Of a stretch of 36,021 nt of DNA, positions 6,533-23,755 are shown in pieces. The notes below the pieces were generated by a model that was not told where the DNA came from, ran no database searches, and was given only the letters and a program-made list of their open reading frames with translations. The stretch covers positions 1 through 36,021 of the forward strand of contig JANYDJ010000232.1 in assembly GCA_025363675.1 (NCBI GenBank), in the 5' to 3' direction. The translations under genes were made by a program, and so were the position numbers. Numbering within the stretch: the stretch's first letter is position 1; every line of letters starts with the position of its first letter. Origin of the DNA: Flavobacteriaceae bacterium. Its GTDB lineage: Bacteria > Bacteroidota > Bacteroidia > UKL13-3.

Positions 6533-9500
6533 CTATCGTTCAATTATTAATTTCGTATGGTACGAACGAATATTTGCAGGATTGTATATTGTATAAATGC
6601 CGTTAGGCAAATGAGATAAATTTAATATTGCCGTGCCACTATTTGTATAATATTGATACACTTGTTTACCCATCAAATTATATATAGTTATCATACTATT
6701 GGGCATGGTGGCAATATTAACCACACCTGCACTGGGGTTGGGCCAAAGCTCTGTGTTATTATTCGTTTCAATGGTGTATATACCTACAGGCTGTTGCAAA
6801 GTAATTGTGTAGTTTTTGGTAGAGCCATCTTGTGCTTGAATAGTATAGGTAATGGTATTTTTTAAATTATTTGCAGTGGCTCCGCTCGTTTGTTCTATAT
6901 TCGATATATAAGCAGTGGCCAGTGGCGATATTTTAAAAGTGGGGACCAGTGTAGTAATATCCACACCAGAAGGTATAGTGGCCGTTACATTGGTGCCGTT
7001 TATAGTGCAGGTAATTTGGGGGGTAATTCCCAAAAATTTGAATTCAAGTAAATCTTTATTGCCACTTAATAATTTGCGGGTACCTTGTGCAATCCAGACA
7101 CCCCATTTTGCATCCTTAATAAACGAGGTAGCGGTGCCGGCTTTGGGCGTTATCTTATCCGTATTCATATCAATGGTAGCAAGTATGGTGTCACCATTTG
7201 TATTTTCGGTAGTGAATAGTATTATATTGTCTGTTTTAGAATAGTTGGGATAAGAAAGCATAGAATTGGCAAACACGGAAGTTACTTTTTGGGTGATTAG
7301 GTTCGATGCTATTAAACCATACTGCGTGGTACTGCCAGACTTGTCGATATAATCGAAAGCAACTATATATGGTGAGTTTTTGCTAATAGACGGATTTCCA
7401 ATGCTCACATCTGCTGGCAGGCTGCTAAATACTTTTTGCACCTTGCCATCGCCTACTACATTCTTCTTGTTGTCCCATACTCGTATCATACCCACATCCC
7501 AGTAACTAATGTCGCTGCCACTATTGTTGGGTATTTTATTATAAGCATCATATATAATATATTCACCTGTGTAGTCCCATTCCAAAGCCCCAGCATATAA
7601 TACACCCGAAGATGTTTGTCCATTGCCCGTGGTGGGGTTATATAAATGGAAACGTGTCCAGTTGTTGCCATCGTATATCCATATACTGCTATCAATGGAA
7701 GTGGTGATACCTGCTATCTTTTTTCCGTCTTTCGATATAGCCATATTGTCCCATATCGCTTGGTTCTGAGCATAAGTTTCAGTGAAACCATTCACGGTAA
7801 TTTTATGCATCATACAATCCCAACCAATAAAATATCCCGCTGAACCATCGTCAGTAACTGACATCGGTTCTTTGGCACTACTTGTTGTCATCGGCAGAAA
7901 GTTACTGGGTGTGGTGGTCGATTTATACCAACGGTTGTTTGTTCCGCTATAGTTCACATCATAACTTAATATATAGTCAGTTCCTGGATTGGTGGGTAGG
8001 TCAACACCTGTGGTATTGCCACTACTACCGCTGCCCGCATTGGGGTCATATATCTGCACTTTGTCGAAAGCTACCATAGCCGCATTGGCTTCGGTTGTTC
8101 CATATAAATCTTTGCAACACTGAACAACTGCATATCGTAAATCGAGAAATTGTGAGGTGGCAGTCAGATATTTACTTAGTGCCCTATAATATACTTGCTC
8201 GGCTTTTGCTTTAGTAATACTTGTAGCAAAAAAATAATAAGCATAGCTGGGAATACCGGAGTTTATATGCACCCCTCCGTTGTCTTTACTGCCTGTATAA
8301 TATTCTTTCATCACCGCAGGTTGCCACCCATTATCGCTAAGACTGTTGCCTCCATTGTGCGGATTGCTCAAATCACGCAACGCACCTGTAGGAAAATAAT
8401 TTTTTCGAACCACATCTTCACCCATTTGCCAATTAAGTCCTTCTATCATAGCCCCAAATATATCTGCCATCGATTCGTTCATAGCACCGCTTTGTGTTTT
8501 ATATTCTAGGTTTGCTGTTTTTTCTACAACACCATGTGTCATTTCGTGGCCGCCCACATCCAATGCTCCAGCCAAAGGTTTAAAAGCCACATCGCCATTT
8601 CCATAATACATTGCTTGTCCGTTCCAATAGGCATTGTCCATGGCACTTCCATCGCTTTCAGTTACATTAATAATACTTATAATATTTCCACCCGCCCCAT
8701 TAATACTGTTGCGACTATGTACATTTTTCCAGTAGTCGTAGCATACTTTGGCGTTGTATTGTGCCGATACAGTTTTTTGAGACCACGAACTGTTATTGGA
8801 TTGCTTTATTTGTGCAATTCCTGAACCGCTTGTATAATTTGCATCTAAAGTCCAGATAACACCCTCGGGGCCATCGGGAAACTGCGATTGGGCAGAATTA
8901 AACATGGGTTCACTTGCATCAATAGGATAGAATGAACCATTGTATTCGTAAGTGTTTATTGTGCGTTGTTTATTGTTGAGGTCATTCATGGTGGCGGTTT
9001 TTGGCCCGTTTGCAGTACATGTGTGATTGTATTGGTCCAGTGTTTCGCCAGTGTTTGCATCTATAACTATAATATATCTTTCTATAAAATTAGGTCTCAA
9101 GTTTATATGATATGCAAGTGACGGCTTTAATAATTCATTATAATATATTTCTAATTTTATTTCAGGAATATTCTCGCCAAATAATTTAATTTGTTCGGGA
9201 GTCCATGGATGAATATTAGTAACTTCAGAGAGTTTCTTACGGGCCATTAGCAGTGCCTGTTCTTTTGAAAGCAAGGGCACTGTAGTTATTCCGCTGGGAG
9301 TAGGATACATGCGACCCATGGATATTTCTATATAGTTATTTCTAGTTACCACTATCCAATCGCTGCCGTGCACGGGCACTCCCTTGTATATTTGTGTTAT
9401 ATGGTAAAATGACTGTTTGGTAACCGGGTCTTTTTCGGCTTTAGATATTTTTAACTCCTCACTATTTTGCACTTGCAGGGCTAACTTTATTTTCTCAATA

Positions 9501-9787
9501 TATGGAGATAGGGAATTCTCAGATGCAGAAGAAATCATATACTTTCCATCTATCTTTATTACTAAATTATTATTGGGGTCACGGCTTACATGCAGAGCAC
9601 TCGCAGCGTTTATAGTAGAACCACCATCATTAATAATAGCTTGTTGGTATTGATCGGATGCCATCCTTCCATCCACAGTTTGGTATTGAAAAGTGGGCTG
9701 TTTGCTTCCTGTTTTAGCTTTGTGCAATTGGGCATACACCGAATTTGCAAAACATAGAATTGCAATTATATATATAAGTTTTTTCAT
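6533..9787 (-). CDS. secreted M4 (thermolysin-type) metalloprotease with T9SS tail
   Basis: This is a secreted zinc endopeptidase of 1084 residues. Signal peptide 1-19. An FTP/PepSY-like propeptide spans about 50-250 (QIYKGVPVHGSDW; IIVIDANTGE at 239-248). The M4 catalytic domain spans about 260-620, with HEMTH at 414-418, the third zinc ligand Glu438 in NESMADIFG, and DNGGVHINSGI (502-512) carrying His507. A beta-propeller-like region (about 680-940) follows. Next comes a small Ig-like domain ending YTIQAQDGSTKNYTITLQ, then a T9SS C-terminal domain (WPNPSAG ... LPNGIYTI). The frame is open 48 codons further up, but the signal peptide fixes the start at 9787, 20 nt after a TATATTTG box. M4 proteases of this layout usually act on extracellular protein. 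Confidence 0.93.
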   Translation of the reverse strand: MKKLIYIIAILCFANSVYAQLHKAKTGSKQPTFQYQTVDGRMASDQYQQAIINDGGSTINAASALHVSRDPNNNLVIKIDGKYMISSASENSLSPYIEKIKLALQVQNSEELKISKAEKDPVTKQSFYHITQIYKGVPVHGSDWIVVTRNNYIEISMGRMYPTPSGITTVPLLSKEQALLMARKKLSEVTNIHPWTPEQIKLFGENIPEIKLEIYYNELLKPSLAYHINLRPNFIERYIIVIDANTGETLDQYNHTCTANGPKTATMNDLNNKQRTINTYEYNGSFYPIDASEPMFNSAQSQFPDGPEGVIWTLDANYTSGSGIAQIKQSNNSSWSQKTVSAQYNAKVCYDYWKNVHSRNSINGAGGNIISIINVTESDGSAMDNAYWNGQAMYYGNGDVAFKPLAGALDVGGHEMTHGVVEKTANLEYKTQSGAMNESMADIFGAMIEGLNWQMGEDVVRKNYFPTGALRDLSNPHNGGNSLSDNGWQPAVMKEYYTGSKDNGGVHINSGIPSYAYYFFATSITKAKAEQVYYRALSKYLTATSQFLDLRYAVVQCCKDLYGTTEANAAMVAFDKVQIYDPNAGSGSSGNTTGVDLPTNPGTDYILSYDVNYSGTNNRWYKSTTTPSNFLPMTTSSAKEPMSVTDDGSAGYFIGWDCMMHKITVNGFTETYAQNQAIWDNMAISKDGKKIAGITTSIDSSIWIYDGNNWTRFHLYNPTTGNGQTSSGVLYAGALEWDYTGEYIIYDAYNKIPNNSGSDISYWDVGMIRVWDNKKNVVGDGKVQKVFSSLPADVSIGNPSISKNSPYIVAFDYIDKSGSTTQYGLIASNLITQKVTSVFANSMLSYPNYSKTDNIILFTTENTNGDTILATIDMNTDKITPKAGTATSFIKDAKWGVWIAQGTRKLLSGNKDLLEFKFLGITPQITCTINGTNVTATIPSGVDITTLVPTFKISPLATAYISNIEQTSGATANNLKNTITYTIQAQDGSTKNYTITLQQPVGIYTIETNNNTELWPNPSAGVVNIATMPNSMITIYNLMGKQVYQYYTNSGTAILNLSHLPNGIYTIYNPANIRSYHTKLIIER

Positions 9788-9807
9788 AATACTATTTTTT
9801 GTTAGTG

Positions 9808-9834
9808 CAAATATAAGTAGAGTCAGATAGACAA
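9808..9834 (-). promoter_or_regulatory. putative Bacteroidota promoter of the M4 protease gene
   Basis: On the minus strand the -7 box TATATTTG occupies 9815-9808 and matches TAnnTTTG exactly. A TTG at 9834-9832 is a possible -33 element, but the 16-nt spacer is slightly short. The box ends exactly 20 nt before the ATG at 9787. Confidence 0.5.
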
Positions 9835-9887
9835 AAATTTGGAAAGTATAATAATCGAAGTCTGCGTTTAGTTCACACAGATTAAGG

Positions 9888-12152
9888 TTATATCTTAATG
9901 ATATATTGCAGGGTAAAACTACGGGGGGCACCCATATTGCCTAGATAATACATGTACTCTTTGTTTAACAAGTTTTTGCTTACAAAAGAAAATTTATGTT
10001 TTTTGTAGGTATATCCTATTCTTATATCCCACAAACTATATCCATTGTTGTGAGCCTCCCTATAAGCTTTAGCCCCATGTATAATTAGTTCTGAAGCAAG
10101 GAAATCATTAACTCGCAACATATAACTATTAAACTTGAAGGTAACACCCGCGAAAAATCTTTTATATTCAATATCCGTATTTACTTTCCAAGTATGACGG
10201 AAGCGGCTTTGCAAATAATTATAATATGGAGTTTGCTTAGCCGTTTCGCTATATACCGAATCGAGATACACAGGTTCTATATAAGTGTAGCCTGCCAATA
10301 AAATAATATTTACCTTTTTAATTTTGCCTTCTCCGCCAATAGATGCATCAAGGCCAGTAATTCTAGCTTTTTTGGCAGTGTTTTGTGTTTGAAAAGCAAC
10401 GGGATAAGCAGGGTCATATACATACATAAAATCAACCATATTATTATATTGATTCCAAAAGCCAGCCAAGTCTGCATAGCCCATCCATTTGCCAATTTTT
10501 ATACCTTGTTTTATCCCTATTTCTGCACTCTCACCCGTTTCGCTCTTTACATCCGGATTGGGTAAAACCCTTACTGCTCCGCCTGTCGAGGTATTTATAT
10601 ATCTTTCAGCCACCGATGGGAAACGATAACCTGTGCCATAGCTAGCACGCATATAGGTATATTTTGCCAAAGGGTGGCTTAAACCAAAACGAAATACAGG
10701 TAGTCCTTCTGCTTTGCGGTCGTCAATTTTATTGTGTTCATAACGTATACCGCCCGATAAATTTAGCTTACGCCATTTGCCATCTATTTGCAAATACAGA
10801 GCTGCATTAGTACCTTGATGGTCGTGATACAGGCTGTCACTTTTTATGGTATTAATAGTATATACAGCACCACCTGTAATGGTTAATTTTAATTGCTTTT
10901 CTATATTATTATAATACTTTTGATATTGCAGTTCATTATAAGCCAAAGTAGCATGGGTATGTATACCTGTAGTGTCAAATTTATCGGCACTATAACTATT
11001 GTTATTGGTAACATACAATCTACTTCTAAGTATTATTTTATAGTTATTCGGTTTTGCATATTCTATATAGGGGTCTATATTATACCTTTGATTTATCATA
11101 TTGCTGGCTGTATTTGGTGCGGCAATGAAAGGTGAATCGGCCTGCTTCCAAAATAAAAAATTACCAACCTGTGCTGAAAAAAAAGAGGCATAAGCACCAA
11201 TTTGCAATCCTTTTATATTGTCGAATTTTTGCTTTAAACCTATGCTAAGTCTCTTGTTGTTGGTGGCTTCAAATTGGCGATAGCCATCGTCTTGTAAACT
11301 ATATACAGCAAAAGTAACTCCCGTGTTTTTATAAGTTTGCGAATGAAATACATGGATACCATTGGTGCTTTGTCGTTGTTTGAATATTTTAAAATGGGCA
11401 TTGGCAGGATTGTCATAGAAACCCGTAAAAGCAGTTATTTTGGTTAATGGCACTATACTAGGCTCTGCTGTGCGAATATTAATTACACCACCCATAGCCC
11501 CCGATCCAAACAAAGCTGATGATGCTCCTTTTACAATCTCCACTTGTTTTATATTTTCAACAGGTAAGGCATCCCATTTTATATCAGCAGCATCGGCACT
11601 AAGCATGGGCATATCGTCTACCATTAGCAACACCCTGCTGCCTGTGCCATAACTAAAACCGCTCCCTCCCCTAATATTGGCTTGTCCAAAAACTATATTA
11701 ACTCCGGGGATATTTTCTACCGCCGCATCCATTTTTATAGCATTGGTATTCTCAATAAGTTTGGGTTTTAAAGTAGCAATCGACACCGTAACATCCGTTA
11801 CTTTCTGTGAAGTTTTTCCAGATGTTACTACTATATCATTTAGCGTATAAGTATTTTCTTCAAGTACAATATATATATATGCCTTATCTACTATTCGTTC
11901 AAGTGGTTTGTATCCATAGTGGTTTATAAAAAATGTAGCAGGGGTGTCAATATTCTCAAACTTGTAATATCCAGTATCGTCAGATAAAATAGAGATTTCC
12001 TTGCCGTTCGATTTGCAAAAAATCTTTACATTCTTAATCCCCTCGGCGGTGGTGGCTTGTATCACCCTGCCTTCTATAGTCAAGTTTTTTTGGGCCAGTG
12101 CATTGTGGCAGAATAAGGTAAATAAGACTACAAAAGGTAAATATTTAGTCAT
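9888..12152 (-). CDS. TonB-dependent outer-membrane receptor
   Basis: The 754-residue protein takes up a siderophore, cobalamin or other ligand across the outer membrane. Signal peptide 1-20. A carboxypeptidase-regulatory-like domain (about 23-105; IEGRVIQATTAEGIKNVKI) is typical of Bacteroidota receptors. The plug domain (about 115-235) carries GGSGFSYGTGSRVLLMVDDMP and VEIVKGASSALFGSGAMGGVINI, the standard plug signature. The remainder is a long beta-barrel with aromatic-rich strands and ends FTLQYIIKI. There is no adjacent SusD, so it is of the BtuB/FepA-like rather than SusC type; the ligand is not identifiable. It has its own promoter and lies 100 bp upstream of the protease gene, which also has one. 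Confidence 0.92.
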   Translation of the reverse strand: MTKYLPFVVLFTLFCHNALAQKNLTIEGRVIQATTAEGIKNVKIFCKSNGKEISILSDDTGYYKFENIDTPATFFINHYGYKPLERIVDKAYIYIVLEENTYTLNDIVVTSGKTSQKVTDVTVSIATLKPKLIENTNAIKMDAAVENIPGVNIVFGQANIRGGSGFSYGTGSRVLLMVDDMPMLSADAADIKWDALPVENIKQVEIVKGASSALFGSGAMGGVINIRTAEPSIVPLTKITAFTGFYDNPANAHFKIFKQRQSTNGIHVFHSQTYKNTGVTFAVYSLQDDGYRQFEATNNKRLSIGLKQKFDNIKGLQIGAYASFFSAQVGNFLFWKQADSPFIAAPNTASNMINQRYNIDPYIEYAKPNNYKIILRSRLYVTNNNSYSADKFDTTGIHTHATLAYNELQYQKYYNNIEKQLKLTITGGAVYTINTIKSDSLYHDHQGTNAALYLQIDGKWRKLNLSGGIRYEHNKIDDRKAEGLPVFRFGLSHPLAKYTYMRASYGTGYRFPSVAERYINTSTGGAVRVLPNPDVKSETGESAEIGIKQGIKIGKWMGYADLAGFWNQYNNMVDFMYVYDPAYPVAFQTQNTAKKARITGLDASIGGEGKIKKVNIILLAGYTYIEPVYLDSVYSETAKQTPYYNYLQSRFRHTWKVNTDIEYKRFFAGVTFKFNSYMLRVNDFLASELIIHGAKAYREAHNNGYSLWDIRIGYTYKKHKFSFVSKNLLNKEYMYYLGNMGAPRSFTLQYIIKI

Positions 12153-19693: not shown

Positions 19694-21688
19694 TTATTTT
19701 TTAATTAATGGGAGACTTTTAATAAAACCATCCTTGCCAGTAATTACACACCAATACATGCCCTGCGAAAGATTGCTAATGTCCATGGTGTGAAATTCTT
19801 TAATAATGGTTTCCTGTCTTTTCATTTGTCGGCCCATAGCATCAATCACCATCACTTGCATTTTGTAGTTATCTCCTTGGTTTTGCTCTATTAAGCTCAT
19901 ACTTGTGTGTATGGTTAATTGTTCATTAGCTGGAACAGGAAATAAACTGATATCAGAAGCAGGAGCGGGAGTTTGGATAATGGAGGTACTCAAATTCTCG
20001 TAAGGATAAACTTTGAAACCATCAATTTTAAAATATACTGCAGCAGTTGGTGGTGCTAACTTAATAAAGCTTACTATTACGCCCTGTGGTTCTTTGCCTA
20101 CCACATCAAATCTAATAAGATAGAGGCCAGTGGATGGCAAATGATCAAATGTTATTTTCCCTTGCGAGTCAGTTAGCCCTGTTTGTAGGGGATTTTCACT
20201 AACATCGTACAAGGTTGCACTTTGGTTTTGCTGAGAATATTTTTCTTTAATAGATTTGTCAATAGTTAAGAAAACTTCAATAGCATTTGAACCAGCGGTG
20301 GCAGTTGTTTTCTTATTTAGTTCTACTGATTGTAATATATGCTGTGTTAAAAGATAGTATTGGGCGTTTATCCAATTCTTATGATTTCCTATATATACAG
20401 GAAAATATTTTTTATAGTATATCGAGGTATTACTTATTACCACTTTTATAGTATATCTCCCGGGCTTTTTTTTCTCGAAAACATATAATCCTGAATCACT
20501 AGCAGTAACCACAAATGTATCAACTACATGTGGTATGTTATTGGTGTTGCTGTCATTTTCAATTAATAAAACAAAAGCTTCATCAATAGGTGTCCCATTT
20601 TCTAATTTTATCTGCCCCCCCAAACTATAGGTAGCGGTATCTTTAGCTACAAGGATGGTGAATTTTTTAATAACAGGCAATGCAGATATAGGGGTATCAA
20701 CAACAGTAAGTTCTATATCATAATTTCCATAAACACTGTAAGTATGGTCTACCAGATTTCCTCTTCCTGTTGTACCATCGCCAAATTTCCAATTGTATAC
20801 AAATTCTTTTTGCTGGTTGAATTTTGCTGCTGCTTCAAAAGAAACAGTTTGTTTGCTTATATTGTAGGAATAATTCAACTTAAAAGCAGGAAGCGTGGTG
20901 ATAGCTACATAGCTGCTCCAAGTTTGTTTACAGCCCGATATGGTGTCTTCCATGGTAAGCGTAGCTTTGTAGTTGCCATTGTATTCGTACTTATGGTCCG
21001 GCCTCAATGCTATGGTGGTAGAGTTATCACCAAAATCCCAAAAATAGACCGCATTTGGGTTGTAAGTTTTGATTACAAATGTGGTGGTATCGCCACTTGT
21101 TGAAGTTTCAAATGTGGCGTCACAAGTATATTTAGGTTTAATATATATATCGCTTTCCAATGAATCAGTACAACTTTGACTCTCTATTAAAAGTTTAACA
21201 TATCGGGTTCCAGTTTTTGGATATTTCCAAATAGGGTTTTCATCATTCGAAAACTCATGATTCTCAAAAAACCAAGTGTACGTAGTCGAACTATCTGTGC
21301 CTGTAGAGAGGCTGGTGCAAATAATAGAATCTCCTTTTACCTCAACTCTATAATTTGCTTTACATCCAGGACTTTGAGCAACAATCCTAACGGTATCCAT
21401 AAAAATGTCTTTACAGCTATTAACAGCATCTTCCACCTTAAGAAAAACGTAGTATTCTCCGGGGTTTGTATATGCATGTATAGGGTTATCGGTAAGCGAG
21501 TAATTGCCATCCCCAAAGTTCCAATAGCTTTTATAAAAGCCTGAGACCGATGAGGAAACATTTTTAAACGTTACAATATAGCTTGCAGTATCAAAGTTAA
21601 ATTTTGCAGTGCAATTTTGTGCTTGGGCACTACTCATAAAAAAGGTAAGAGCAGCAAATAGTATTATGGATAGATTTCTGCGTATCAA
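19694..21688 (-). CDS. PKD-repeat surface protein with T9SS tail
   Basis: This is a 664-residue exported protein. Signal peptide 1-23 (ending SSAQAQ). Four PKD-type domains occupy about 25-350; three keep the core motif (YWNFGDGNYS, YFWDFGDNST, YNWKFGDGTT) and the second is degenerate (YTWFFENHE). Carboxypeptidase-regulatory or CnaB-like domains follow (YSLGGQIKLENGTPIDEAFV; TGLTDSQGKITFDHLPSTGL). The T9SS C-terminal domain begins at about 575 (ISLFPVPANEQLTI ... LSQGMYWCVI). The start codon is TTG at 21688, overlapping the upstream stop as TTGA; the signal peptide begins exactly there and the next Met is inside it. It is third in the sigma-factor operon. The role is unknown; it is probably a secreted or surface adhesin-like cargo. 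Confidence 0.85.
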   Translation of the reverse strand: MIRRNLSIILFAALTFFMSSAQAQNCTAKFNFDTASYIVTFKNVSSSVSGFYKSYWNFGDGNYSLTDNPIHAYTNPGEYYVFLKVEDAVNSCKDIFMDTVRIVAQSPGCKANYRVEVKGDSIICTSLSTGTDSSTTYTWFFENHEFSNDENPIWKYPKTGTRYVKLLIESQSCTDSLESDIYIKPKYTCDATFETSTSGDTTTFVIKTYNPNAVYFWDFGDNSTTIALRPDHKYEYNGNYKATLTMEDTISGCKQTWSSYVAITTLPAFKLNYSYNISKQTVSFEAAAKFNQQKEFVYNWKFGDGTTGRGNLVDHTYSVYGNYDIELTVVDTPISALPVIKKFTILVAKDTATYSLGGQIKLENGTPIDEAFVLLIENDSNTNNIPHVVDTFVVTASDSGLYVFEKKKPGRYTIKVVISNTSIYYKKYFPVYIGNHKNWINAQYYLLTQHILQSVELNKKTTATAGSNAIEVFLTIDKSIKEKYSQQNQSATLYDVSENPLQTGLTDSQGKITFDHLPSTGLYLIRFDVVGKEPQGVIVSFIKLAPPTAAVYFKIDGFKVYPYENLSTSIIQTPAPASDISLFPVPANEQLTIHTSMSLIEQNQGDNYKMQVMVIDAMGRQMKRQETIIKEFHTMDISNLSQGMYWCVITGKDGFIKSLPLIKK

Positions 21689-23103
21689 AATTTATAAGAT
21701 AGACTTAAGTTAACACCTTTGGCAGTAAGTTTTTGTCCGCCCAAAGGAGAGGTTGCAGTTTGCCTGTTTACTTGGCTGTTCATAAATGGCTCAATTCCCA
21801 AATTCATTTTATCACATACTTTGTAATTAACTTTTATTGCGAAAGCAGCACTAATCATCATACGTTGGTTAAGTGAAAGGGAATTGGCTTCGGCCATTTT
21901 AGTATATTCAGTGGGCTTGCCTGCATTTAATTTGGGCCCAATATTGCTCATTAAATATGCTGTGTTAATACCAATTTGTGGAATGATATTTATCTTTTTT
22001 GAAGCATTAAGCACATAGCCCAAAGCAGAGCTTACAGAAACAAATTTATAATTGGTTAAAACATTGGTATTTGCTATGGATGTGTATGATTTATAATAGT
22101 CTTCTTGTTTAAACGGTTTAGGGTCATTGGGGCTCTGAAAATTGGGACGGAGGTTTATCGAATCTTCTTTTTGGAATATATAAGTACCTGTGTAATTATA
22201 TTGTGATACACCTATACCGTTTGTAAACAAAAGGTGGTTTTTAACTATATTAAATTTGATTCCCCACTGGTTTGCGTATGAAGCTTTTTCTGATTCTTTG
22301 CGAATAGAAGCCACATGAGCATCCGCATTGTTATCTATTTTGCGGAATGTGCTAGAGGCCCCACCAAATATTTCTATACTTGTTTCAATAGCATTTGGTT
22401 TTTTATGACGGGGTGCCCTATAGTTCAAATTATTTTGTGGAATATTGGGAATGCCAAAACCAAGAGTGGGGACAGAGATATTAGCAAATACAGATGCTAA
22501 ACTAAAAGCTTCGGGCGATGGGATTACTGTTGGTTCGCTAGCAATTACCGCAGGGATTACTATATCCGATAAGTTATGATTGTCTGCTATCATATTTTCC
22601 AATATCGGTGTATTTACCTTAGCAAGTATATCTTTAATGATAGGCTGACGTTTGGTAAATAGGGTATAATTTTTTTCAGCAGCAATTGAAGGTGTGTGAG
22701 CAGGGTTTAGTGCTTGTTCCTGTAAAATGATAGGGTTGATAGGAGTTGTTTGTACAATTAAATTATCATCTTTTTCAAAAGAGAATAGAGAGTCTATGGT
22801 GCTGCTGGCCGCAAATTGGCTTGCAATTAGACCGCTTAGGGAAATAAAGAATAAGCTGGCAGCTGCAACACGTTTATATAGTTTAATCTTTTGGCGGTTT
22901 TTAAGTATATTGCTAAGACTTGTCCAAACCCATTGAGGGGGTTGTGGTTGGTGTTTGTCAAATTTGTTGTACAATGTTTCCTCTGCATTGCTATTCCCCA
23001 ATCCGTTCTTTACTCTGCTCCATACATTTCCTGGAGGAGTAGGTTCATATTCCTCGAAATGATTTTTAAAAATGTCGTCAATATGTTCTTTATCGTTGCT
23101 CAT
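21685..23103 (-). CDS. inner-membrane-anchored protein with C-terminal outer-membrane barrel (possible anti-sigma/sensor)
   Basis: The 472-residue protein has no N-terminal signal peptide. Residues 1-75 are soluble and contain two copies of a 24-residue motif (12-35 and 44-67; pattern N-x-F-x5-P-x-PP-x2-VW-x4-N-x-L). One membrane helix follows at about 79-97, then a low-complexity linker rich in Pro, Ile and Thr (about 110-230). The C-terminal half (about 235-472) has the strands of an outer-membrane beta-barrel and ends NLSLSYKF. Such proteins often follow ECF sigma factors in Bacteroidota. By position the cytoplasmic part could bind the sigma factor; this is inference. The start overlaps the sigma gene by 14 bp and the stop overlaps the next start. 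No canonical anti-sigma domain was recognised. Confidence 0.7.
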   Translation of the reverse strand: MSNDKEHIDDIFKNHFEEYEPTPPGNVWSRVKNGLGNSNAEETLYNKFDKHQPQPPQWVWTSLSNILKNRQKIKLYKRVAAASLFFISLSGLIASQFAASSTIDSLFSFEKDDNLIVQTTPINPIILQEQALNPAHTPSIAAEKNYTLFTKRQPIIKDILAKVNTPILENMIADNHNLSDIVIPAVIASEPTVIPSPEAFSLASVFANISVPTLGFGIPNIPQNNLNYRAPRHKKPNAIETSIEIFGGASSTFRKIDNNADAHVASIRKESEKASYANQWGIKFNIVKNHLLFTNGIGVSQYNYTGTYIFQKEDSINLRPNFQSPNDPKPFKQEDYYKSYTSIANTNVLTNYKFVSVSSALGYVLNASKKINIIPQIGINTAYLMSNIGPKLNAGKPTEYTKMAEANSLSLNQRMMISAAFAIKVNYKVCDKMNLGIEPFMNSQVNRQTATSPLGGQKLTAKGVNLSLSYKF

Positions 23104-23656
23104 ACTCGTTGTCGTATTGTTTGTTTATCATAGCTTGCAGTATTACTCGTGCTCTAGCCATTTGAGATTTGGAAGTCCCCTCAGATATTCCAAGTACCTC
23201 ACCTATTTCTCTGTGATTATATCCTTCTATAGCGTACAGGTTAAATATATTTCGGTAGCCGGGGGCCAACTTTTGAACTAGTTTGATTAGATCGTCAGTC
23301 TGCATTTTTTGTAGTGGGGAAAAATCATTTTCATTCGCAGACTCACCCATCACATCGGCATTAAAGTCCATCAATTGATATACCCGCTCGCGTTTGTATT
23401 TTTTTAGGGCTGTGTTAATCATGATACGCCTCACCCATCCTTCAAAGGCACCGCGAGATTCGAATCGATTCAAAGTTTCAAACACCGCCATAAAGCCTTC
23501 ATGTAAGGTATCTTCTGCTTCCATTCGGCTGCTACTGTACCGCAGGCAAACACCAAACATTTTAGCCGCATACTTATTGTACAAAGCCTCTTGTGCCCTA
23601 TGATTGCCAGCAAGGCAACCATCAATTAGTTCTTGTTCTTCAGTGAAGTTAGACAT
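23090..23656 (-). CDS. ECF-type RNA polymerase sigma factor (sigma-70 family)
   Basis: The 188-residue length is typical of ECF sigma factors. Region 2 spans about 20-85 (EALYNKYAAKMFGVCLRYSS, EAEDTLHEGFMAVFETLNRF, GWVRRIMINTALKKYKR). Region 4 spans about 125-180 (LAPGYRNIFNLYAIEGYNHREIGEVLGISEGTSKSQMARAR), with a clear helix-turn-helix. It heads an overlapping three-gene operon with a membrane/barrel protein and a T9SS cargo. In Porphyromonas gingivalis an ECF factor, SigP, acts with PorX on T9SS genes. This protein resembles that broad group, but the group has many members per genome, so SigP identity is unproven. It probably controls envelope or secretion genes. Confidence 0.92.
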   Translation of the reverse strand: MSNFTEEQELIDGCLAGNHRAQEALYNKYAAKMFGVCLRYSSSRMEAEDTLHEGFMAVFETLNRFESRGAFEGWVRRIMINTALKKYKRERVYQLMDFNADVMGESANENDFSPLQKMQTDDLIKLVQKLAPGYRNIFNLYAIEGYNHREIGEVLGISEGTSKSQMARARVILQAMINKQYDNEYEQR

Positions 23657-23721
23657 TTTAATTTACAGATTAGTGTAAATGTGTTACATGGGTTTTTGGG
23701 CAATTTATACTTAGTAGAGTA

Positions 23722-23755
23722 CAAAAATAGCAAAAGGGTTGCATCCATTTATCAA
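23722..23755 (-). promoter_or_regulatory. possible promoter of the sigma-factor operon
   Basis: On the minus strand TATTTTTG (23729-23722) matches TAnnTTTG, with a TTG at 23755-23753 and a 23-nt spacer at the long end of the accepted range. The ATG is 65 nt from the box, a longer leader than at other genes here. Confidence 0.35.

Follow-up and report, generated by a model that had tools for sequence, protein, structure and literature searches.

A candidate Das/Dma-type sigma factor switch encoded with a type IX secretion cargo in a Flavobacteriaceae bacterium

The DNA stretch analysed here, 36,021 nucleotides in length (contig JANYDJ010000232.1 of a Flavobacteriaceae bacterium, hereafter referred to as the window), contains on its minus strand three overlapping open reading frames (ORFs). 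These encode an extracytoplasmic function (ECF) sigma factor of 188 amino acids, a membrane protein of 472 amino acids (the tether protein), and a PKD-containing protein of 664 amino acids, with a TTG start, bearing a sorting domain of the type IX secretion system (T9SS). I propose, with a probability of about 0.8, that this operon encodes a switch of the Das/Dma type, in which the tether protein would hold the sigma factor directly. This reading draws on the predicted architecture of the tether protein, the operon itself, a conserved promoter, and the distribution of a cytoplasmic motif among the partners of related sigma factors.

Dual membrane-spanning anti-sigma (Dma) systems, with their Das sigma factors, were reportedly described by Pardue in 2024 in Bacteroides thetaiotaomicron. 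The published Dma layout consists of an anti-sigma domain, a membrane helix, a disordered tether and a barrel, next to a sigma factor of group ECF21 (PMC13088901). Dma2 lies in a three-gene operon, and deletion of dma2 raises das2 and the downstream genes with log2 fold changes of 2.5 to 6.0 (PMC13088901). The window operon shares the neighbouring ECF sigma factor, the N-terminal (putatively sigma-binding) part, the single helix, the long disordered tether and the C-terminal barrel, as well as a third gene in a compact operon. Self-induction has been demonstrated for Dma2, and the promoter suggests it in the window. The window operon differs in that the cytoplasmic motif is doubled, in that the third gene encodes a T9SS cargo where a DUF4943 gene follows the Bacteroides dma2, and in that the host possesses a T9SS.

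Operon organization and predicted architecture

The sigma factor (Table 1) scores below the cut-off of TIGR02985 (77 against 126 bits), and the solved structures nearest to it include CnrH, RpoE, SigW and SigH. The sigma and tether genes overlap by 14 bp, and the tether and cargo genes by 4 bp; two congeneric species (L050, L052) have the same three-gene order and overlaps, and orthologues of the tether protein within the genus are 67% and 61% identical to it. The window genome encodes about 14 sigma/partner pairs, the window operon being one of them. In one paralogous operon (L049, G000:C74) an in-frame stop interrupts the sigma gene in the assembly, and the partner gene is intact.

No Pfam family matches the tether protein above cut-off. 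This includes the anti-sigma families by which a class I anti-sigma domain, with its four helices and often a zinc motif, would be recognized, and the HxxxCxxC motif is absent from residues 1–78. This N-terminal segment instead contains two copies of a short motif, identical to each other at 9 of 28 positions. In the AlphaFold model, obtained with an alignment of 16 sequences, the second unit consists of helices 40–47 and 57–99, the latter running on into the membrane helix. The predicted local distance difference test score (pLDDT) is below 50 across residues 95–236, and rises to mostly 70–95 in the region 240–471, which forms eight long strands. Foldseek matches for this barrel are to the small barrels OmpA, NspA, OmpX and OmpW. 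The intervening tether, of 142 residues, would reach ∼48 nm at full extension, and should therefore be long enough to span the periplasm.

The first-pass annotation of this DNA had placed the three ORFs and their overlaps at these coordinates, as confirmed here, and had read the middle protein as a single chain running from the cytoplasm to the outer membrane, through a duplicated motif, one membrane helix, a flexible linker and a barrel. This topology is supported by the AlphaFold and Foldseek results. Its proposals that there is no separate anti-sigma gene, and that the duplicated motif is the likely sigma-holding element, both agree with the published Dma design (PMC13088901), and the latter also with the motif association and covariation described below.

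Table 1. Features of the window operon and of related partner proteins (positions are in the window, unless a locus is named).
Feature	Position	Strand	Basis
ECF sigma factor (Das-like), 188 aa	23090..23656	-	Pfam Sigma70_r2 + r4_2; TIGR02937 84.9 bits
Dma-like dual membrane-spanning anti-sigma candidate, 472 aa	21685..23103	-	AlphaFold, Foldseek, orthologues
Candidate sigma-binding motif copy 1, residues 9-36 (DDIFKNHFEEYEPTPPGNVWSRVKNGLG)	22996..23079	-	HMM E=1.7e-10; predicted helices 8-15, 25-36
Candidate sigma-binding motif copy 2, residues 41-68 (EETLYNKFDKHQPQPPQWVWTSLSNILK)	22900..22983	-	HMM E=4e-8
Inner-membrane helix, residues 79-97	22813..22869	-	Hydropathy peak; R/K-rich N-terminal side; model helix 57-99
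Disordered periplasmic tether, residues 98-239	22387..22812	-	Low pLDDT, composition, length
C-terminal 8-strand outer-membrane barrel, residues 240-471	21691..22386	-	AlphaFold strands; Foldseek
T9SS cargo, 664 aa	19694..21688	-	Pfam and NCBIfam
Candidate autoregulatory ECF promoter TGCAAC-N15-GTACTCT	23716..23743	-	60 bp upstream of sigma start
Motif/helix partners with type-B end (CHU_C), often with PKD	L043:3969-5207 (-), L119:10534-11460, L082:10539-11579, L133:3768-4700, 41 of L167-L301		
PorP/SprF-barrel partners, each with multiple weak motif copies	L263:5401-7167 (-), L279:5262-7157 (-), L286:5228-7156 (-), L288:5133-7160 (-)		

Three species of the genus share the candidate promoter upstream of the sigma gene; a relative from another genus (G013) has TGCAAC-N15-GTTGTCT, which differs in the -10 part alone. 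A looser pattern, GCAAC-N15-18-[GC]TC[TA], is found upstream of the sigma gene in 45 of 211 relatives, with 0.7 expected and none on the reverse strand, and upstream of 6 of the 14 sigma genes in the window genome. The exact window pattern has 4 matches in the genome, against 2 in the control, and besides the operon's own site only one of them is near a gene start. Since exact matches are so few, the regulon may be small, as for Dma2, which acts mainly on its own operon and on some polysaccharide loci. Elsewhere in the genome, a GCAAC-N17-GTCTA site (L313, G000:C202:15809-15835) is located 42 bp before a gene for a PKD surface protein with no obvious sigma neighbour, and this gene is possibly an extra target of a paralogous sigma factor.

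A helix-PP-helix motif in sigma partners across Bacteroidia

In order to follow the motif beyond the window, two sets of relatives were gathered. A scan of named genomes yielded 80 relatives of the sigma/partner locus, and in all 80 a motif-type partner is encoded downstream of the sigma gene (for L119, identified by eye only). Class-wide, the sigma type is present in 160 of 198 genomes (E < 1e-30), and 135 of the places found were retrieved with their surroundings; partner ORFs with long sigma overlaps were recovered through a motif search. The motif spans ∼29 amino acids, with the profile consensus DKLFKEKLSNFEVTPPAGVWDKIAAELDK. It is modelled by no Pfam family, and looks like a new cytoplasmic element.

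ECF partners throughout the class Bacteroidia carry this motif ahead of the membrane helix, in 1 to 9 tandem copies: two in the window, three in relatives from two other genera (G005, G013). The first 97 partners hold 176 copies, 173 of them N-terminal to the helix, and lysine and arginine are richer on the N-terminal side of the helix in 83 proteins, against 5 with the opposite bias. Relatives that lack a barrel retain both motif and membrane helix, and a set of Bacteroidales relatives (L066, L090, L125, L136) have motif, helix and a barrel-like C-terminus in common. Most partners scored zero by the profile have a weaker motif on visual inspection, such as SLENYEAKYNPADWSDLQNKL in L194.

The hidden Markov model (HMM) of the motif was trained on partner proteins, and its presence in these is thus partly by construction; its absence elsewhere, however, is an independent result. 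The HMM matches none of 1,940 shuffled proteins, and only three of the 1,851 other ORFs of the 80 loci, each a true sigma partner. In the larger set, none of 1,120 shuffles and 14 of 3,509 other ORFs are matched; by inspection, these 14 are sigma-partner ORFs (one protein appearing twice) and one extra motif gene in L294. The latter (L294:6526, plus strand) is a second motif gene, a few kb downstream of the sigma/partner pair.

Further variation was noted in individual lineages. Four Saprospiraceae partners (L062, L083, L086, L088) have five to nine tandem N-terminal copies, with nine in the 752 residues of L088. Three small partners (L102, L105, L121) have one motif before the helix, and a second motif-like match after it, near the C-terminus. 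A contig titled Candidatus Competibacteraceae (L101, JACSSC010000024.1) bears an operon of the Bacteroidota type, which probably reflects an error in the bin or in its name.

I then asked if the motif covaries with the sigma factor, in 215 pairs. The strongest column pairs rise above permutations made within sigma clades (z 4.3 to 6.0). The two control windows, one around the membrane helix and one made up of the final 29 residues, show no such excess (z -0.6 to 1.2), and all three windows have elevated background similarity. This lends moderate support to a contact between sigma factor and motif, and is consistent with the motif copies being putative sigma binders.

Several observations weigh against the proposed switch. 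The control windows align worse than the motif, and alignment quality could explain part of the covariation. The top covarying pairs are scattered, and do not delineate a single clear interface on the sigma factor. An AlphaFold model of an in-frame read-through fusion from L124 (sigma factor plus two motifs, with a 9-row alignment) reached a predicted template modelling score (pTM) of only 0.36, with pLDDT of 57–68 for the motifs. The motif HMM derives from the very partner proteins in which the motif is described. The window pair is likened to Dma/Das on the basis of its architecture. Finally, a related sigma/tether pair is found in two other genera (L053, L054) without the cargo gene.

The T9SS cargo and alternative readings

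The third gene encodes a protein with a signal peptide (by inspection), three PKD domains, a CarboxypepD_reg-like domain, and a type-A sorting domain (Por_Secre_tail, 44.6 bits with a cut-off of 27; TIGR04183, 37.5 bits with a cut-off of 23). SprA was used as the genome marker for T9SS, as the GldL model gave no match even in controls, and the window genome encodes this translocon (537 bits). A sorting domain above cut-off, in a genome that has SprA, justifies the label of T9SS cargo.

That this cargo takes part in signalling is less clear, and it stands at roughly even odds that the Das/Dma-type switch is real but that the cargo is merely an output or a passenger, with no sensing role. The cargo-less pair of L053 and L054 points in this direction, and marks the cargo as an accessory, and not an essential part, of the operon. 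Loss of dma2 in Bacteroides induces the genes downstream of it, which are nevertheless dispensable for the vesiculation phenotype of the mutant (PMC13088901). Type-A cargo is also very common in the window genome, with at least 150 matches; as 150 of 273 candidates were scored, and the gene number is estimated at ∼3,000, the cargo background is at most ∼9%. Against this background, however, 6 of the 8 complete third genes in the window genome encode T9SS cargo (p ∼1e-5, or ∼1e-4 without the window). Class-wide, sorting domains are more frequent in the genes after the pairs than in those before them (26/89 third genes, 11/131 upstream genes, p=8e-5), which counts against a mere passenger.

The partners themselves also contain T9SS parts. 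In 41 of 127 class-wide partners a type-B sorting domain replaces the barrel at the C-terminus, and the barrel as a general sensor was dropped for this reason. Among the type-B-ended partners tested, CHU_C was found in 43 of 44 and TIGR04131 in 42 of 44 (E < 1e-5); one such partner (L043) is encoded in the window's own genome, and for 13 of the 41 the next gene has a sorting domain. Four other partners fuse the motif to a barrel of the PorP/SprF type (61 to 86 bits, cut-off 22), and each is followed, with an overlap of 1 to 4 bp, by a gene for a ∼215-residue cargo with a type-B C-terminal domain. This is the cargo class that PorP-like barrels bind (PMC9143113), which again argues against a passenger role. 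The available part of the literature on anti-sigma factors with PorP and SprF, a transcriptome paper only, describes no sigma partner fused to PorP/SprF. In the Chitinophagaceae, the pairs are followed by a 4HBT thioesterase gene; this was weighed as a possible third component, but judged to be a neighbour. The link to T9SS cargo suggested in the first-pass annotation is thus upheld in part: cargo genes are over-represented after the pairs, and some tethers include T9SS components, but the pair also occurs with no cargo.

It is improbable that the 472-residue protein is an ordinary outer-membrane protein, unrelated to the sigma factor, with its first ∼98 residues acting as a long cleaved export signal. 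Inspection of the sequence suggests a weak signal-peptidase site at residues 95–101, and the fusion model gave no confident sigma contact. However, the 78 residues ahead of the helix hold two conserved copies of a motif found almost only in ECF partners, this region covaries with the sigma factor, barrel-less relatives keep it together with the helix, and the published Dma proteins have the same layout.

Also improbable is a regulator like SigP of Porphyromonas gingivalis, in which the sigma factor would drive T9SS machinery genes under the control of PorX. The ECF sigma factor, the T9SS context and the presence of porX in the same region are reminiscent of the PorXY-SigP system, and the start of porX (806 bits, cut-off 300) is indeed 10.7 kb away from the sigma gene, in agreement with the ∼11 kb noted in the first pass; unrelated genes lie between the two, and within the window nothing but this distance links porX to the operon. 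A promoter class common to T9SS genes and an ECF/anti-sigma pair is reported for Flavobacterium psychrophilum (PMC9723704), and an ECF-T9SS link may thus exist in other lineages. However, SigP is bound directly and stabilized by PorX, and lost without it (PMC4800418), and in the accessible parts of PMC4800418 and PMC8265659 no anti-sigma partner of SigP is described. The targets of SigP are T9SS machinery genes, and it is PorX, not a membrane tether, that binds it, whereas the window sigma factor has its own tether and promoter; for this reason, the SigP-like circuit proposed initially is not supported. The TapA model turned up no Porphyromonas genome in the sample. In addition, none of the four exact promoter matches is at the translocon gene SprA (a weak test of T9SS-machinery control), and ∼13 paralogous pairs in the genome have an equal claim to such a role.

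Proposed mechanism and wider context

In the Das/Dma-type switch favoured here, the motif copies would bind the sigma factor on the cytoplasmic face of the inner membrane, so that it does not reach RNA polymerase. The barrel would be seated in the outer membrane, joined to the inner-membrane part by the tether. An event at the outer membrane, such as loss or mis-assembly of the barrel, binding of a ligand, or altered contact with a surface protein, may then set the sigma factor free, possibly by way of tether proteolysis. Once released, the sigma factor would transcribe its own operon from the TGCAAC-N15-GTACTCT promoter. Additional tether protein would reset the switch, and additional T9SS-exported PKD surface protein would be its output, and possibly a ligand of the barrel as well. 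The two motif copies may act as a clamp on sigma domains 2 and 4, and so increase affinity, or each may hold its own sigma molecule.

There is a parallel for a small element of this kind. CnrY possesses a single unit, and no barrel. Its short two-helix cytoplasmic anti-sigma element resembles the helix-PP-helix unit (PMC7406223), and CnrH, as noted above, belongs to the closest structurally solved relatives of the window sigma factor; the likeness is drawn by analogy, and the window units are repeated. At the other end of the protein, PorP-PG1035 and SprF-SprB (PMC9143113) likewise pair an outer-membrane barrel with a T9SS cargo, and four relatives of the window operon fuse such a barrel to the motif, whereas the window barrel is small and OmpA-like, and its cargo is of type A and not type B.

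The class I anti-sigma domain accompanies only 6% of Bacteroidetes ECF sigma factors (PMC7406223), and another class of anti-sigma element is therefore to be expected. I tentatively suggest that much of the ECF control in Bacteroidia could depend on the unmodelled, multivalent helix-PP-helix holder (1 to 9 copies), attached to a modular outer-membrane end (small barrel, PorP/SprF barrel, or type-B sorting domain), and that in the T9SS-linked versions the signal might be the T9SS, or the co-encoded cargo, engaging that end. This generalization is possible, but on balance more doubtful than not. If true, cells would tie surface-protein transcription to whether those proteins are in fact exported. 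The T9SS-linked ends suggest that some of these switches read surface-protein export, and feedback from T9SS to transcription becomes directly testable. On the question of how most Bacteroidetes ECF sigma factors are controlled, the motif, with its variable copy number, offers a testable answer for a large group, and a means of annotating such sigma partners from sequence.

Elsewhere in the window (6533-12152, minus strand), a gene for an M4 metallopeptidase with a T9SS sorting domain overlaps by 44 bp with a TonB-dependent receptor gene, and the two possibly form a two-gene operon.

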